The notes beneath the pieces were generated by a model, which ran no database searches, was not told the origin of the DNA, and saw only the letters and a list, made by a program, of their open reading frames with translations. Of a stretch of 64,000 nt of DNA, positions 28,651 to 37,261 are shown piece by piece. The stretch is from Streptomyces spinosus (lineage in GTDB: Bacteria; Actinomycetota; Actinomycetes; Streptomycetales; Streptomycetaceae): NCBI RefSeq assembly GCF_020400655.1, contig NZ_JAINRC010000005.1:310001-374000 (forward strand). Reading direction: 5' to 3'. The first letter of the stretch is position 1, and every line of letters begins with the position of its first letter. The position numbers were made by a program, and so were the translations under genes.

Positions 28651-29097
28651 ATGGTCCTCGCTCTGACTGTGTGCGGGATCGTGGTCGCACTCGTGGTGGT
28701 GGGACTGTTCCTGTTCGGGCTGCGCCGCAGGCTCATCCAGCGTTCCGGCGGCACCTTCGACTGTTCGCTGCGCTGGGACCTGCCCGAGAAACCGGACACG
28801 GGCGGCAAGGGCTGGTCCTACGGCGTCGCCCGCTACAACGGCGACCGGATCGAGTGGTACCGGGTCTTCTCCTACGCCCCCCGCCCCCGCCGCGTCCTGG
28901 AGCGCGGGCAGATCGAGGTGGCCGGCCGCCGGCTGCCCGAGGGCGAGGAGGAACTGGCGTTGCTGTCCGACTCGGTGGTGCTGGCCTGTGCGCACCGGGG
29001 CACGCGCCTGGAACTCGCCATGAGCGAGGACGCGCTGACCGGCTTCCTCGCGTGGCTGGAGGCCGCCCCGCCCGGACAGAGGGTGAACGTGGCGTAA
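28651..29097 (+). CDS. DUF2550 family membrane-anchored protein
   Basis: DUF2550 proteins follow atpC in many actinobacteria and have no assigned function. The 148-residue protein starts with one membrane helix (about 2-24, LALTVCGIVVALVVVGLFLFG), then a basic patch RRRLIQR and a globular beta-rich domain with conserved aromatic residues (WSYGVARYNGDRIEWYRVFSY). I chose ATG 28651, nine bases after GAGGAGG; GTG 28645 is too close to that site. A small dyad GTAGAA/TTCTAC (28610-28625) lies before the ribosome-binding site. The strong atp terminator upstream implies a separate promoter. Confidence 0.85.
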   Translation: MVLALTVCGIVVALVVVGLFLFGLRRRLIQRSGGTFDCSLRWDLPEKPDTGGKGWSYGVARYNGDRIEWYRVFSYAPRPRRVLERGQIEVAGRRLPEGEEELALLSDSVVLACAHRGTRLELAMSEDALTGFLAWLEAAPPGQRVNVA

Positions 29098-29140
29098 GCA
29101 CGTTCACCCTCCCCCGGACGCGGCCCGGGGGAGGGTGAAC
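29079..29140. terminator. Three-armed alternative hairpin at the end of DUF2550
   Basis: Arm A GAGGGTGAACGTG (29079-29091, inside the gene end) pairs with arm B (29099-29111, CACGTTCACCCTC) over 13 bp. Arm B extended (29102-29117) also pairs perfectly over 16 bp with arm C (29125-29140). A-B and B-C exclude each other. B-C is a good bidirectional terminator between DUF2550 and the convergent chitinase gene. Confidence 0.7.
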
Positions 29141-29160
29141 GGGTGTGGTGCCGTTCGCTC

Positions 29161-30984
<1,824 letters not shown>

Positions 30985-31051
30985 GCTGCGCCTCCCTCGT
31001 CATCGGGGATGTCAGGGGCATGACTGAGCCTTCATGCCCCACGGTGCTGCG

Positions 31052-31080
31052 AGGGTAGAAAGGTCTGGACCACCCGTCAA
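31052..31080 (-). promoter_or_regulatory. Chitinase promoter
   Basis: On the minus strand TTGACG (31075-31080), a 17-base spacer and TACCCT (31052-31057) form a near-consensus housekeeping promoter about 70 bases before the chitinase start codon. Confidence 0.8.
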
Positions 31081-31093
31081 TAGGTCTGGACCA
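31061..31093 (-). promoter_or_regulatory. 12-bp direct repeats of chitin-responsive operator
   Basis: TGGTCCAGACCT occurs twice (31061-31072 and 31082-31093), 21 bp apart, flanking and overlapping the -35. Such paired repeats are the established cis-element of Streptomyces chitinase promoters, and each copy resembles the DasR site core TGGTCTAGACCA. They link the gene to chitin and GlcNAc sensing. Confidence 0.85.
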
Positions 31094-31109
31094 TTCCCGG
31101 CGAGCCTCG

Positions 31110-31745
31110 CTAAACCCCCAACTCCCGGGCCGGAACCGCCGCTTGCACCCGGCTGCGCAGGCCCAGCTTGGCCAGCAACCGGCTGACGTGCGTCTTCACC
31201 GTGCCCTCCGCCATGTCCAGCCGGGCCGCGATCTCCGCGTTCGGCAGCCCCTCGCCGATACAGCGCAGCACCTCCCGCTCCCGCCGGGTGAGGCCCTCCA
31301 GCTCGGCCCGGCCGGCCTCCGTCCCCCGCGCCGGGGCCGCGGCGAACTCCGCGATCAGCCGCCGTGTCACGGCCGGCGCCGCGATCCCCTCCCCGCGCGC
31401 GACCGTCCGCACCGCCTCCAGCAGTTCCCGCGCCTCGGCGTTCTTCAGCAGGAACCCGGCCGCGCCCGCCCGCAGCGCCCCGAAGACGTACTCGTCGAGG
31501 TCGAAGGTGGTCAGCACGAGCACGTCCGCGAGCCGCTCGGCGACGATCCGCCGGGTCGCGGACACCCCGTCGAGCCGGGGCATCTGCACATCCATCAGCA
31601 CCAGATCGGGGCCGAGGCTCCGGGCCAGCTCGACCGCCCGCTCGCCGTCCGCCGCCTCGCCGACCACCTCGATGTCCGGCGCGCTGCGCAGGATCAGCAC
31701 GAGCCCGGCACGGACGGCGGACTGGTCCTCGGCGACCAGGGCCGC
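31110..31745 (-). pseudogene. NarL/LuxR-type response regulator missing its start
   Basis: The frame encodes an almost complete response regulator: ALVAEDQSAVRAGLVLILRS (phosphorylation-pocket Glu/Asp), phospho-acceptor Asp in LVLMDVQMP, FLLKNA Lys, and a C-terminal LuxR helix-turn-helix (LTRREREVLRCIGEGLPN, EGTVKTHVSRLL). Upstream of the ALVAEDQ segment the similarity stops abruptly and no ATG, GTG or TTG exists in frame. The first usable start, GTG 31700, would drop about 15 receiver residues including the acidic pocket. Beyond 31745 the DNA belongs to a membrane-protein gene on the other strand, and no sensor kinase follows. It looks like the survivor of a deletion; a CTG start is the alternative. 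Confidence 0.7.
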
Positions 31746-32203
31746 GCACCGGCCTGGCCCTGCTGCTGTGCGAGCCGCTGCTGGAGGTCGTGCTCTTCGC
31801 CGTCACCGCGATCGACCTGCGTGGCGGAGCCGAACCAAACTGGCGGCACGGGCTCGCCGCCGTCTACATCGGCTTCACGGTCGGCCTCGGCCACTCCAGC
31901 ATCAGGTGGGCGGACGCCCGGGTGGCCCACCGCTTCGCCGGCGGCCCGCCCCCGGTCAGGCCGCCCCGGTACGGCACGGCCCGCGCCGTCCACGAGTGGA
32001 GGGTCGCGGCCCGCTGGATCCTGGCCTCGGCCGTCGCCCTCGCCCTGCTCCAGGGCGCGGTCTGGTACGTCGGCGATTCCGGCGACACCGGTTCGCTGCG
32101 CGCCTGGCAGCAGCGCATGCTGTGGGTGATCGGCGTCAACGTGGTCGTCGCCGCGAGCTACACGCTGTTCCCCAAGCGGGAGCCGAACCGCGGGGCGGGC
32201 TGA
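31745..32203 (+). pseudogene. Membrane protein fragment missing its start
   Basis: From about 31745 the plus strand encodes a hydrophobic protein with four likely membrane segments (GLALLLCEPLLEVVLF, GLAAVYIGFTVGLG, WILASAVALALLQGAVWYV, MLWVIGVNVVVAASYTLF) and a charged C-terminus PKREPNRGAG. No start codon or ribosome-binding site lies before RTGLALLLCEP, where the response-regulator DNA abruptly begins; the first in-frame start is GTG 31790 inside the first helix. It is presumably the other side of the deletion junction. I do not know the family function. Confidence 0.6.
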
Positions 32204-32247
32204 AACTCCGTCGACACCGGGCCGGGCGCCGGGACATGATCGCCCCG

Positions 32248-32751
32248 ATGACACGCACCGACACGCCTTCCGCCTGGGACGAGCGCACCCAGCTGACCAC
32301 CTTCCTCACCTATGTCCGCGCCACCGCGCGCGCCAAGTGCGAGGGACTCTCCGACGAGGACGCCGTCAAGGCGATCCTCCCCGGCTCACCGCTGATGACC
32401 CTGAGCGGACTGATCAGCCATCTGCGCTGGGTCGAGTACTTCTGGTTCCGGGTCGTCTTTCTGGGGGAGCCGGACGAGGGCCCCTGGACCGACGAGGACC
32501 CCGACCGCGAGATGCGGATCGCCGTCGACATCCCGCTGTCCCGGCTGCTCGCCGAGTACGCCGAGGAGGCAGCCCGGCACGACGAACTCGTCGCCGCGCA
32601 CGACCTGGACACCAGGGCGCGCACCAAGCGGGACGACGGCAGCGCGGTGGACCTGCGCTGGATCCTGCTCCACCTCATCGAGGAGACCGCCCGCCACAAC
32701 GGCCACCTCGACATCCTGCGCGAACAGATCGACGGCCGGACCGGCGACTGA
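32248..32751 (+). CDS. DinB/DUF664 family protein
   Basis: The 167-residue protein has the four-helix DinB-like fold with putative metal ligands in SHLRWVEYFWF and HLIEETARHNGHLD. DUF664 members in actinobacteria are annotated as possible metal-dependent hydrolases or thiol (mycothiol or bacillithiol) transferases, but this function is unproven here. I chose ATG 32248 (MTRTDTPSAWDERTQL); ATG 32236 in the same frame would add four residues, and neither has a strong ribosome-binding site. It lies alone after the damaged region. Confidence 0.8.
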   Translation: MTRTDTPSAWDERTQLTTFLTYVRATARAKCEGLSDEDAVKAILPGSPLMTLSGLISHLRWVEYFWFRVVFLGEPDEGPWTDEDPDREMRIAVDIPLSRLLAEYAEEAARHDELVAAHDLDTRARTKRDDGSAVDLRWILLHLIEETARHNGHLDILREQIDGRTGD

Positions 32752-32818
32752 GGGAGCCGGGCTCCCCGGTCGGTGCTCAGGCGTCTGCCGCAGCGGTCCG
32801 GCGGCCCGCCGGACACGC

Positions 32819-33547
32819 TCAGCGCGCGAGGGTTTCGGGCAGGAGCGCGCTCGCTCCGCCGTCGATGGGGATGACGGCTGCGTTGATGAAGCCGGCCTCG
32901 TCGCTCAGCAGGAAGCCGGTGAGGTGGGCGACGTCCGCCGGGGTGCACAGGCGCGGGCTGGGGTAGGCGCGCTGTAGCGCCTTGAGTACTGTCCGGTCGG
33001 CGAGGTGCTCGTTGCGGGGGACGGGTACGAAGCCGGGTTCGACGAGGTTGGTCCGCAGCCCCTTCGGTCCCCATTCGACGGCGAGGGACAGCGTGAGCCC
33101 GCGCAGCGCGGCTTTCGCGGTGGTGTAGGCAGCCATCCCGGCCTCGCCGAAGCCGCCGTGGATGGAGCCGACCAGCACGCACGCCGCGGGACCGCTGCGG
33201 TGCTGCTCGAGGAGCTGGGCGGACCGGAGGGCCGAGGTGACCCCGGCCGCGAAGACCTGCTGCATGTCCTGGACGCCGAGCTGTTCCAGCGGGACGCGCC
33301 GGTCGGCGAAGACGCTGTGCACCAGGGCTTCGACCCGGCCGGTTTCGGCGGCGATGCCGAACACCTTCTCCAGGTCCTCGGGCCGGGAGGCGTCCGCGCG
33401 TACCGCGGTGACGTTCTCCCCCCGGAGGGTCAGGATCTGGTCACTGCGGGCGGCGGCGATGACGTGGCGTCCTCGGGAGACCTGCTCGGCGGTGACGGCG
33501 CGGCCGATGCCGCCCGATGCCCCGAGAACGACGACGACGGGCTTCAC
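32819..33547 (-). CDS. Short-chain dehydrogenase/reductase
   Basis: The 242-residue protein is a classical SDR: GASGGIGRA binds the nucleotide, Ser in LVGSIHGG and Tyr/Lys in AYTTAKAAL form the catalytic site, and the usual NNAG is replaced by VHSVF. The C-terminal IDGGA motif is present. The early RS after AAARSD may favour NADP. GTG 33547 has GGAAGGG upstream. It is the second gene of an AKR-SDR pair controlled, by position, by the divergent TetR gene. The substrate is unknown. Confidence 0.88.
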   Translation of the reverse strand: MKPVVVVLGASGGIGRAVTAEQVSRGRHVIAAARSDQILTLRGENVTAVRADASRPEDLEKVFGIAAETGRVEALVHSVFADRRVPLEQLGVQDMQQVFAAGVTSALRSAQLLEQHRSGPAACVLVGSIHGGFGEAGMAAYTTAKAALRGLTLSLAVEWGPKGLRTNLVEPGFVPVPRNEHLADRTVLKALQRAYPSPRLCTPADVAHLTGFLLSDEAGFINAAVIPIDGGASALLPETLAR

Positions 33548-33572
33548 TGTGTACTGCCCTTCCTTTCAGGGT

Positions 33573-33599
33573 GGGGGTGCGCGGCTGGGTCGCACCCCC
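33573..33599 (-). terminator. Hairpin between the AKR and SDR genes
   Basis: GGGGGTGCG (33573-33581) and CGCACCCCC (33591-33599) pair over 9 bp with a 9-base loop in the 70-base intergenic gap. It may reduce read-through into the SDR gene. Confidence 0.45.
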
Positions 33600-33617
33600 G
33601 GATGTGCGGCGTACGGG

Positions 33618-34484
33618 TCACTTACCGATGGCGTCGAGCTCCGACACCGCGTCGGCGGGCAGGGTCAGGCCGGCGGCGGCGATGTTCTCCGCCAGGTGCG
33701 CCACCGACGAGGTCCCCGGGATGAGGACCATGGACGGCGAGCGCTGGAGCAGCCACGCCAGGGCGACCTGCTGCTCGGAGGCGCCCAGGCGCTCGGCCAC
33801 GTCGGCGAGGGCCTGCGACTGCAGGGGGCTGAAGCCGCCGAGGGGGAAGAACGCCGCGTAGGCGATGTTCTCCGCGGCGCAGCGGTCCACCAGGGCGTCG
33901 TCGGCGCGGTTGGCCAGGTTGTACAGGTTCTGCACGGTGACGACCGGGGCGATGGCCTGGGCTTCGGTGAGCTGGGCGTCGGACACGCCGCTCAGGCCGA
34001 GGTGGCGGATCAGTCCCTGCTCGCGCAGCTCGGCCAGGGCACCGAACTGCTCGGCCAGCGAGTCGGTGGAGCCCGCCTCCAGCGCGGCGGTGCGCAGGTT
34101 GACCACGTCCAGAGTCTCCAGGCCGAGGTGCTGGAGGTTCTCGTGGACCTGAGCCTTGAGGTCGGCGGGGTCGAGGGAGGGGATCCAGGCGCCCTTGTCG
34201 TCGCGGCGCGCTCCGACCTTGGTGACGATGTGCAGGTCGGCCGGGTAGGGGTGCAGGGCCTCCTTGATGAGTTCGTTGACGACGACGGGGCCGTAGAAGT
34301 CACTGGTGTCGATGTGGGTGAGACCCGCGTCGACCACCGCGCGCAGTACGGCGATGGCCTGGTCCTTGTCCTTCGGCGGGCCGAAGACGCCAGGGCCGGC
34401 GAGCTGCATGGCGCCGTAGCCCATGCGCGTGATGGTCAGGCCTGCGGCCGGGGTGAGGGTCTCGAGGGAGGCGGGGGTGGTCAC
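33618..34484 (-). CDS. Aldo/keto reductase
   Basis: The 288-residue TIM-barrel enzyme reduces carbonyl substrates with NADPH. Catalytic Asp and Tyr lie in IDTSDFYG and the Lys in HIVTKVGA. The usual His position reads VVNLR (Asn), as in a bacterial AKR subgroup. The cofactor segment near the end (LIPGTSSVAHLAENI) is intact. GTG 34484 has GGAAGGA upstream. It is transcribed away from a TetR gene with a palindromic operator between them. Confidence 0.9.
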   Translation of the reverse strand: MTTPASLETLTPAAGLTITRMGYGAMQLAGPGVFGPPKDKDQAIAVLRAVVDAGLTHIDTSDFYGPVVVNELIKEALHPYPADLHIVTKVGARRDDKGAWIPSLDPADLKAQVHENLQHLGLETLDVVNLRTAALEAGSTDSLAEQFGALAELREQGLIRHLGLSGVSDAQLTEAQAIAPVVTVQNLYNLANRADDALVDRCAAENIAYAAFFPLGGFSPLQSQALADVAERLGASEQQVALAWLLQRSPSMVLIPGTSSVAHLAENIAAAGLTLPADAVSELDAIGK

Positions 34485-34517
34485 GCGTGCGTCCTTCCGG
34501 AGTGCTTCTGCCCAGCA

Positions 34518-34537
34518 GTATCTAACTGGATAGATAC
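34518..34537. promoter_or_regulatory. TetR-type operator between AKR and TetR genes
   Basis: GTATCTA and TAGATAC form an inverted repeat with a 6-base centre. A second, weaker dyad (GTAA...TTAC) lies at about 34558-34577, closer to the TetR start. Both sit in a short AT-richer island that must contain the two divergent promoters. Confidence 0.65.
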
Positions 34538-34595
34538 AAAGTAGCCCCGGAAGTCGGAGTAAGTCAAAAGTTAGTTACACGGCTACGATGGCCAC

Positions 34596-35237
34596 ATGGA
34601 CACGAACGGGACGGCGCCGAAGGGATCCAGGCCGAGGAACTCCGCGGCGACCAAGGAACTGCTGCTCGCGGCGGCCACCGCGGAGTTCGCGGACTTCGGC
34701 CTGGCCGGGGCCCGGATCGACCGGATCGCGGAGCGGGCAGGTGCCAACAAGCGCCTGCTCTACGTCTACTTCGGGGACAAGGATCAGTTGTTCGAAGCCG
34801 TCCTGCGCGAGCAGATCGGCAGGCTGGCCGAGGAGACGCCGTTGGTCAACGGCGACCTGGTCGCTTATGCCGCGGCGCGTTTCGACTTCATGCTGGCCCA
34901 CCCGGAGACCGCCCGCCTGGCGGCCTGGCGCCGCTTCGAGCGCCACGGCGAACCCAGCCGCGCCGAGATCGACAGCTACCGCGCCAAGGTCGACGCCATA
35001 GCCGCCGCCCAGCGCGCGGGGCGCGTCAACGACGGCATCCCCGCCGTGGACCTGTTCGCGATGGTCCTGCGCATCACCGAGAGCTGGCTGGACGCACCCC
35101 CGGCCCTGGCCGCCGCCGTCGGAACGGACCCCCGTTCCGACGACCGGCTCGCCGAGCACCGCGCCGCCTTCCTGGAGGCCGTGCGCCGCATCACCGCTCC
35201 GCGCACCGCCGGTCGGCCGCACGGCACGGACGCGTGA
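34596..35237 (+). CDS. TetR/AcrR family transcriptional regulator
   Basis: The 213-residue protein has an N-terminal TetR helix-turn-helix (TAEFADFGLAGARIDRIAER, then ANKRLLYVYFGDKDQLF) and a divergent ligand-binding helical domain. It is divergent from the AKR-SDR pair and probably represses both directions through the palindrome at 34518-34537. The inducer is unknown; carbonyl compounds or the substrates of the two reductases are natural guesses. Confidence 0.9.
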   Translation: MDTNGTAPKGSRPRNSAATKELLLAAATAEFADFGLAGARIDRIAERAGANKRLLYVYFGDKDQLFEAVLREQIGRLAEETPLVNGDLVAYAAARFDFMLAHPETARLAAWRRFERHGEPSRAEIDSYRAKVDAIAAAQRAGRVNDGIPAVDLFAMVLRITESWLDAPPALAAAVGTDPRSDDRLAEHRAAFLEAVRRITAPRTAGRPHGTDA

Positions 35238-35295
35238 GGCCGAGGAGCCGGCCGCCACCCGCCGGCCGCGTCCCCAACCTCACAGGGCAATACAG

Positions 35296-35868
35296 CTAGC
35301 GCTCTCCGCCCGGCACCCACAGCACGTCGCCGGTCTCCCGGTTGGCGCTGCGGGCCAGGATGAACAGCAGGTCGGAGAGGCGGTTCAGGTAGGTCGCGGT
35401 GAGCGGGTTCATCGTCTCGCCGTGCACCTCCAGGGCGGCCCAGGTGGAGCGCTCGGCCCGGCGGACGACCGTGCACGCCTGGTGCAGCAGGGCGGCACCC
35501 GGGGTGCCGCCCGGCAGGATGAAGGAGCGCAGCTTCTCCAGCCGCTCGTTGAAGCGGTCGCAGTCCGCCTCCAGCCGGTCGACGTAGAACTGCTCCACCC
35601 TCAGCGGCGGGAACTCCGGGTTCTCCACCACCGGCGTCGACAGGTCCGCGCCGACGTCGAACAGGTCGTTCTGGACGCGGGTGAGGACAGCGACGATCTC
35701 CTCGTCCAGGCCGCCCAGCGCGACGGCGGTGCCGATCACCGCGTTGGCCTCGTTGGCGTCCGCGTAGGCGGAGATCCTGAGGTCCGTCTTGGGCACGCGG
35801 CTCATGTCACCGAGGCTGGTGGTGCCCCGGTCGCCGGTCCTCGTGTAGATGCGCGTCAGGTTGACCAT
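35296..35868 (-). CDS. Cob(I)alamin adenosyltransferase, PduO type
   Basis: It transfers the adenosyl group of ATP to cob(I)alamin to make coenzyme B12. The 190-residue protein has the PduO signatures YTRTGDRGTT (ATP binding), RRAERS and NRLSDLLFILAR. ATG 35868. Methylmalonyl-CoA mutase needs this cofactor, and mce and meaB of the same pathway lie 19 kb downstream. The gene appears monocistronic and converges with the TetR gene. Confidence 0.93.
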   Translation of the reverse strand: MVNLTRIYTRTGDRGTTSLGDMSRVPKTDLRISAYADANEANAVIGTAVALGGLDEEIVAVLTRVQNDLFDVGADLSTPVVENPEFPPLRVEQFYVDRLEADCDRFNERLEKLRSFILPGGTPGAALLHQACTVVRRAERSTWAALEVHGETMNPLTATYLNRLSDLLFILARSANRETGDVLWVPGGER

Positions 35869-35970
35869 GCGGCCAGCGTAGTGATGCGCCGGCCGTCCGG
35901 GACACCCGTGTGCCCGCCGTCACGGCCGGGACGGCGAAGCGGATCAGCCTGCCGGCCGGCGGGGAGGACG

Positions 35971-36162
35971 CTAGCGGAGCGCTCCGGTCCGCACGGCGGC
36001 GACGAACGACGACCAGGACCCGGCCGCGAAGAGGAGGGCGGGCCGGTCGGGGGCTTTGCTGTCGCGGACGGGGACGGCGGGGGAGAGGTCGTCGGAGACT
36101 TCGAGGCAGTTTCCGCCGTCGGGGTTGCTGTAGCTGCTCTTGCGCCAGGTCACGGTGGTCAT
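35971..36162 (-). CDS. DUF397 small protein
   Basis: The 63-residue protein has the DUF397 hallmarks TWRKSSYSNPDGGNCLEV, VRDSK and W.SFVAAVR. In Streptomyces these small proteins are encoded next to DUF5753-type XRE regulators; the WhiJ and AbaA loci are studied examples, and related pairs have been described as antitoxin/toxin-like. The ATG overlaps the stop of the XRE gene (ATGA), so the two are translated together. There is no independent promoter in sight. Confidence 0.9.
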   Translation of the reverse strand: MTTVTWRKSSYSNPDGGNCLEVSDDLSPAVPVRDSKAPDRPALLFAAGSWSSFVAAVRTGALR

Positions 36163-37001
36163 GTCGATGGCTCGCACGGCACTTCCTCCAACATCCGCAG
36201 GATGAACTTCCGCGACTCGGCGGGACCGAGTGCCTGGTCGCGCATCGCATCGTACGCACGTTGCAGCCGCTCGACCGCCGCGTTTTCCTCCAGCAGTTCG
36301 CCACGGTGCGCGTTCTCCGTGTACGCCACCGTAGTACCGGATGTCAGCCGGAGGAACATGACGTCGGTGCTCACCAGACCGTGCAGACCCGAGCGGTCCG
36401 GCAGTGCCTGGAGCGTGATGTTGGGGTGCTCGGACACCTCCAGGAGGTAGCCCAACTGCTCCCGCCATGCCGCCTCGTCGCGCAACGGCGTGCGCATCGC
36501 AGTCTCGGCGATCAGGGCGCGGAACGGCGGGGCGTCCTCGCCCTCCAGGAGCAGCCGCCGACCGGTACGCGCGGTCACTTGCTGGTCCAATCGAGCGCCC
36601 TTGTAGCCGCCGAGTGCGAGCACTTCGCGCGCGTAGGCGTCCGTCTGCAACAGGCCGGGCAGGATACTCACGGAGTACTGCCAAAGACTCACCGCCTCCG
36701 CCTCCAGCGTCATGTACCGCCGGTACTGCTCCTTGAACTGCGTCGGGTCCGCCACCGCCATCTCCCACATCGCCAGCAGCAGGCCGGGCGTGCCGTAGTA
36801 CCGGTCCAGCGCCTCCGCCACCTCCGGCCCGCCCAGCGTCTCCCCGCTCTCCAGCTTCCTGAAGAGCGAGGGGTCCCAGCCGGCCGCCTTGGCCAGTTCG
36901 CGCAGGCTCAGACCCCTGGATGTGCGGAGCAGGCGAAGTTCCTCCGCGTAGCGCCGGCGGGGCTCCTGACTGCGTCCGGTGATCGCCCTGCGCATCGGCA
37001 T
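36159..37001 (-). CDS. XRE-family regulator with DUF5753 domain (WhiJ-like)
   Basis: The 280-residue protein has an N-terminal Cro/C1 helix-turn-helix (LRLLRTSRGLSLRELAKAAG, DPSLFRKLESG) and a C-terminal DUF5753 region (WQYSVSILPGLLQT, YTENAHRGEL). WhiJ-type proteins of this architecture act on Streptomyces development with a small DUF397 partner, here the overlapping gene. I chose ATG 37001, seven bases after GAAGGGGG; a frame extends to 37112 but adds only Arg-rich residues. Streptomycetes carry dozens of such pairs and the target of this one is unknown. Confidence 0.9.
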   Translation of the reverse strand: MPMRRAITGRSQEPRRRYAEELRLLRTSRGLSLRELAKAAGWDPSLFRKLESGETLGGPEVAEALDRYYGTPGLLLAMWEMAVADPTQFKEQYRRYMTLEAEAVSLWQYSVSILPGLLQTDAYAREVLALGGYKGARLDQQVTARTGRRLLLEGEDAPPFRALIAETAMRTPLRDEAAWREQLGYLLEVSEHPNITLQALPDRSGLHGLVSTDVMFLRLTSGTTVAYTENAHRGELLEENAAVERLQRAYDAMRDQALGPAESRKFILRMLEEVPCEPST

Positions 37002-37261
37002 GGGGCACCCCCTTCGTGGTCGCCGTGTGACAGTCCGGACGCAGAGAGTATCGGCGCGTACGCGATCGCGGCGCCGGAAGAGGCCGTGCCGTACCGGTAC
37101 GGGTTGACGCACACTCAGCCGCCGCCGGCCCCCGTACCCCTGCCGGTGTGATCTCCGTCAAATGGGACGTGACGCGCGTTACTTACCGGTCACACAGCGG
37201 CGCCGGAGCGCTATGGTCCGCCGAGGAGGCAGACCTTTCACCGCGTTCATAGGGAGTCGGA

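Follow-up and report, generated by a model that had tools for sequence, protein, structure and literature searches.

The closest described relative of the locus analysed here is the ChiS/ChiR two-component pair, which passages of one study present as SCO5378/SCO5377 and as controlling the chitinase ChiC in Streptomyces coelicolor (PMC9739842); in excerpts of another paper chiR is numbered SCO5376 (PMC6097792). The latter excerpts state that disruption of chiR in S. coelicolor lowers chiC transcription with and without chitin (PMC6097792). ChiR is described in the papers cited here as required for full chiC expression. Overall chitinase activity was unaffected by a ChiR deletion, as the passages of the former study put it (PMC9739842), and no binding of ChiR to the promoter of chiC could be demonstrated, according to sections of a third paper (PMC10345050). 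These sections also mention S. thermoviolaceus, in which chitinase production is raised by a ChiS/ChiR pair located upstream of chi40, and the title of a work in the reference list of that paper reports ChiS as a negative regulator of ChiC in S. peucetius (PMC10345050).

The window, i.e. the whole stretch of 64,000 nucleotides of Streptomyces spinosus DNA that was analysed, contains a locus which fits the ChiS/ChiR system, judged by gene order, domains and the published descriptions (Table 1). As in S. coelicolor, intact relatives have a NarL-type regulator and a kinase adjoining a GH18 chitinase gene with promoter repeats. The window differs from S. coelicolor in that it has lost the kinase gene and its regulator lacks a start; the regulator domains and the chitinase neighbour with its two 12-bp repeats are present, the adjacent kinase is absent. 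Therefore the system is very probably defunct, and we regard it as a remnant of ChiS/ChiR and not as a working member. No model named ChiS or ChiR was found among the NCBIfam matches listed, which for chiR were the best 25 of 85 and which were without exception below their cut-offs.

The chiC protein of the window matches that of S. echinatus (G016) over its full length with 95.6% identity. Both promoter repeats are identical in all eight aligned genomes, including three in which chiS is broken or missing (the window genome, G020 and G259), and they differ from the printed DasR consensus core TGGTCTAGACCA at two of 12 bases. In excerpts of PMC6097792 DasR is described to bind similar repeats at the other chitinase genes chiD, chiH and chiI, and a DasR-type repressor acting at the conserved repeats may thus be a candidate for the control of chiC. 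Because chiC and its repeats stayed intact after the deletion, chiC would now be controlled without a two-component system of its own. The genome of the window has seven GH18 matches, so that the breakdown of chitin in general has probably been retained.

Table 1. Features of the chitinase locus and its right-hand flank, in window coordinates.
Feature	Position	Strand	Basis
chiC-like chitinase gene, intact, 607 aa	29161..30984	-	CBM2 PF00553, fn3 PF00041, GH18 PF00704
Direct repeat TGGTCCAGACCT, proximal copy, upstream of chiC	31061..31072	-	alignment of 8 genomes
Direct repeat TGGTCCAGACCT, distal copy, 21 bp away	31082..31093	-	alignment of 8 genomes
chiR remnant, NarL/LuxR-type response regulator without first 11 nt (M-I-R-V) and start	31110..31740	-	Pfam Response_reg and GerE
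Deletion junction, blunt	31740..31741	.	1,414-1,417 bp missing compared with G135/G016
Membrane-protein gene remnant without first 29 codons	31742..32203	+	aligns from residue 30 of G016 protein
Mycothiol S-transferase family gene	32248..32751	+	Pfam PF04978; common to G135 and G020
Cobalamin adenosyltransferase gene, right-hand syntenic anchor	35296..35868	-	96.8% match to G016

Structure of the junction and the missing segment

At the junction the headless regulator gene and the headless membrane-protein gene abut with no base between them. The initial annotation, which was made from the letters of the window, had seen them meet near 31745, within five bases of the position found here. In a BLAST search with window 29000-34600 against stretches of 15 relatives (G135 was added later from a search of the genus) two blocks of the window, 29000-31740 and 31741-32185, had their counterparts in G016 with 1,417 bp of G016 between them. 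The left-hand break lies at 31738-31740 in 14 of the 15 relatives, and at 31569 in the remaining one, G020. The segment missing from the window measures 1,414 bp in G135, 1,417 bp in G016 and 1,426 bp in G033. It comprises the first 11 nt of chiR, a complete histidine kinase gene, the divergent intergenic region between kinase and membrane gene, and the beginning of the membrane gene (29 codons).

The gap in G016 encodes a kinase of 395 aa with HisKA_3 and HATPase_c domains (the domain search was made on this kinase only), and further holds the regulator start and the GTG start of the membrane gene with the following codons; the intergenic region between chiS and the membrane gene is 136 bp long if the starts of the ORF list are taken. 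A kinase is present at this place in G135, G016, G205 and G033, and both starts accompany it in G135, G016 and G033. The suggestion that one deletion took the kinase together with both starts agrees with these comparisons, as intact relatives hold these elements between the two halves.

The details of that suggestion held to different degrees. For the regulator, whose frame runs on the minus strand from stop to stop over 31110-31802, the first in-frame ATG, GTG or TTG is the GTG at 31700, which already lies deep inside the receiver domain, so the usual start is indeed missing from this gene. Four of its residues are lost and the remnant aligns to intact orthologues starting at residue 5. The claim that only a few N-terminal residues are missing is thus right for the regulator, but the membrane protein has lost 29, a hydrophobic stretch. 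Its native start is gone; however, its frame runs open upstream into the antisense strand of the regulator, with a GTG at 31364, and "no start codon" is true only of the native start. Neither remnant frame contains stop codons. Response_reg and GerE were found both in the chiR remnant and in the intact chiR of G016, and for the intact G016 membrane protein no Pfam or NCBIfam family was matched.

The absence of the expected kinase was also borne out: there is no kinase ORF beside the regulator, and no chiS orthologue was found elsewhere in the genome of the window (9.17 Mb, 94 contigs). The best of 27 matches to the G016 kinase in this genome (3.1e-42) has 48% identity over residues 167-391, which is the level of other kinases, while in G135 the match is 8.7e-215 with 86% identity over the full length. 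A relocation of chiS to another place was not supported, as no kinase match of ortholog grade lies on the contigs of the assembly.

We favour, with a probability of about 0.93, the explanation that a deletion of about 1.41 kb by end joining removed chiS and both gene starts and left chiC intact. A single illegitimate end-joining event would have taken out the whole segment described above, leaving two pseudogene remnants back to back which may then have decayed, and chiC with its promoter repeats would have remained untouched. That the mechanism was end joining is inferred from the junctions: at the join in the window the two ends have no bases in common (judged on G135 and G016), the join in G020 has a possible overlap of 1 bp, and no repeats are found, which fits end joining. 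Ku-family matches over the cut-off number three in the window genome, four in G020, two in G135 (with one more below the cut-off) and one in G259. The scar resembles bacterial end-joining deletion remnants in its blunt or 1-bp junctions, the absence of repeats, the fusion of gene fragments and the presence of the segment in intact relatives. It differs from them in nothing of kind; what stands out is the number of genomes in which chiS is hit.

Comparison with the deletion in a near relative

The relative G020 shows a deletion of its own at this locus. Its left block ends at 31569 and its right block starts at 31787-31788, 1,631 bp are lost in comparison with G135, and its chiR is also frame-shifted. 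The deletion of the window is contained within that of G020. One ancestral deletion common to both, which G020 later extended at the left end (171 bp) and at the right end (46-47 bp), would explain this arrangement. This is a question of history and compatible with the end-joining deletion preferred here; we consider it rather unlikely, but worth weighing.

The window genome is 97.10% identical to G020 over 18,668 upstream columns, as would suit a shared event, but G135, which is intact, is equally close (97.38%). Within the same block the derived sites common to the window genome and G020 (26) slightly exceed those of G020 and G135 (22), but the window genome and G135 share most (38). When both flanks are taken (55,126 columns), the numbers are 165 for the window genome and G135, 140 for G020 and G135, and 86 for the window genome and G020, and in the flank tree the window genome and G135 form a pair with a bootstrap of 87%. 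Near the scar the ranking is the same, with 6, 4 and 2 sites in 29161-31569 and 2, 1 and 0 sites in the membrane remnant. In addition, the base retained at the junction of G020 is that of G135 and not that of the window. The mycothiol S-transferase gene, counted without an outgroup, gives a pairing of the window genome with G135 no support (9 sites, against 16 for the window genome with G020 and 16 for G020 with G135). Where an outgroup was used, the pairing of the window genome with G020 was never the best supported; it came last in the largest set, though in the upstream block it did not. Because the flank tree does not contain this pairing, independent losses in the window genome and G020 appear favoured, though they are not proven.

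State of the remnants and other readings of the junction

To what extent the chiR remnant has decayed can be estimated from substitutions. With G016 as outgroup 12 nonsynonymous and 6 synonymous changes fall on the branch of the window, compared with 5 and 16 on that of G135 (Fisher p 0.011), and with two outgroups the numbers are 8 and 4 versus 2 and 10 (p 0.036); these p values, like those below, come from several tests and are uncorrected. The intact chiR of G016 has 13 nonsynonymous and 14 synonymous changes on its branch. For chiC, although it is intact, the proportion is raised as well (13 and 13 in the window versus 2 and 11 in G135, p 0.045; with two outgroups p 0.096), and the membrane remnants show no decay contrast, neither in the window (8 and 10, G135 5 and 4, p 0.69) nor in G020 (2 and 7). 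The chiR remnant has seven unique residues, which is no outlier among the other 20 sequences (0-16). One of them is a Ser-to-Pro exchange in the GerE region (alignment column 173), where the other 20 sequences have Ser. These counts suggest, but do not prove, a relaxed selection on chiR after the deletion, and the overall decay signal is mixed. ChiR function has presumably been lost.

A different reading is that the layout is functional and that chiR is translated from CTG or another unusual start and acts as an orphan regulator. Its frame contains no stops, translation from a CTG at codon 5 might in principle yield an almost complete ChiR which retains the acidic residues of the receiver domain, and the mixed decay signal of chiR, membrane remnant and chiC would agree with it. 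However, the usual start codons begin only at the position in the receiver domain given above, the deletion took the divergent intergenic region, which is probably the promoter, and the branch of the chiR remnant has, with the caveats of the mixed signal, a raised number of nonsynonymous changes. Moreover, among the genomes examined none was met with the same back-to-back layout and working starts. We therefore regard a functional layout as very improbable. An assembly error, in which 1.4 kb present in the organism were dropped by the assembler, is equally hard to credit: the assembly is a draft of 94 contigs, but the junction lies in the middle of a contig (position 341,740 of 408,154 in C55), no bases are shared at the ends of the join from which a collapse could arise, the contigs lack a kinase of ortholog grade, and the near relative G020 has its own deletion at the locus.

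Lesions of chiS in the genus and neighbouring genes

Among 392 genomes of the genus the exact 25-base junction is found in one, that of the window. When up to three mismatches are allowed the pattern matches 53 genomes, all except the window genome at exactly three, and a control pattern read backwards matched 24 (counted by eye), so that the forward pattern matches somewhat more genomes than the control does. The three-mismatch match of G020 sits on a different contig from its scar. Among the matches listed, the whole query of 361 bases aligned in the window genome alone, and some other genomes align up to 19 bases beyond the junction (e.g. G262 and G209, both of which have the kinase next door).

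A kinase match better than 1e-50 is present in 345 of the 392 genomes, of which the eight weakest were inspected more closely, and absent from 47 (counted by eye). In 45 of these 47 the DNA of the chiR/membrane locus is not strongly matched either (E no better than 1.6e-24); the other two, the window genome and G020, have lost the kinase from a locus which is still partly there. In G259 only residues 249-394 of the kinase are left, fused to the membrane gene at about residue 114. The join (stretch L137, 7221-7223) has an overlap of about 3 bp, of up to 9 by one alignment and more by another; chiR aligns in full and chiC from residue 7. G393 has kept only residues 272-395 beside unrelated ORFs (stretch L138, 5702-6073), and in the 12 kb fetched chiC, the membrane protein and the adenosyltransferase were unmatched when matches below 38% identity were left out. 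Thus chiS has been removed or cut in at least four of 392 genomes which still keep part of the locus, and three of the four (the window genome, G020 and G259) have kept chiC. G248 and G399 were rejected as losses; their kinase pieces are scattered over frames or segments which, with a genome completeness of 88% and 55%, looks like sequencing error. The open kinase frames of G031, G178, G257 and G088 (449-496 aa) look divergent rather than broken.

A deletion scar is an ordinary kind of event, and we find the recurrence of chiS loss mildly interesting. In the literature, as judged by titles and the openings of abstracts, nothing was found on a natural loss of ChiS/ChiR in Streptomyces. The recurrence suggests that, where other chitinases exist, the pair can be dispensed with or is at times a disadvantage. 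A more far-reaching idea, which we hold to be quite doubtful, is that the loss of ChiS has been repeatedly favoured in Streptomyces lineages, the kinase and the divergent promoter region being deleted and chiC with its repeats being kept, so that control would switch to other regulators or to constitutive expression. It would fit the role of ChiS as a negative regulator of ChiC that the cited title gives for S. peucetius. In any case, nature has here knocked out a chitin-sensing pair that is still poorly understood and that the near relative G135 keeps, and a comparison of the scarred genomes with G135 would test the role of ChiS/ChiR.

To the right of the scar the mycothiol S-transferase gene, for which no match was obtained in the fetched stretches of G016, G205 and G033, is probably a lineage-specific insertion. 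PF01923 was detected on the G016 orthologue of the adenosyltransferase which follows. Between these two genes the window has about 2.5 kb (32750-35294) with a short-chain dehydrogenase, an aldo-keto reductase and a TetR-type regulator. As the same gap measures only 11 bp in G135 and about 14 bp in G020, this segment looks like an insertion in the genome of the window. Further downstream, window 35951-37125, which we take to hold an XRE/DUF397-like pair, matches G020 at 87% and G135 only in short pieces.
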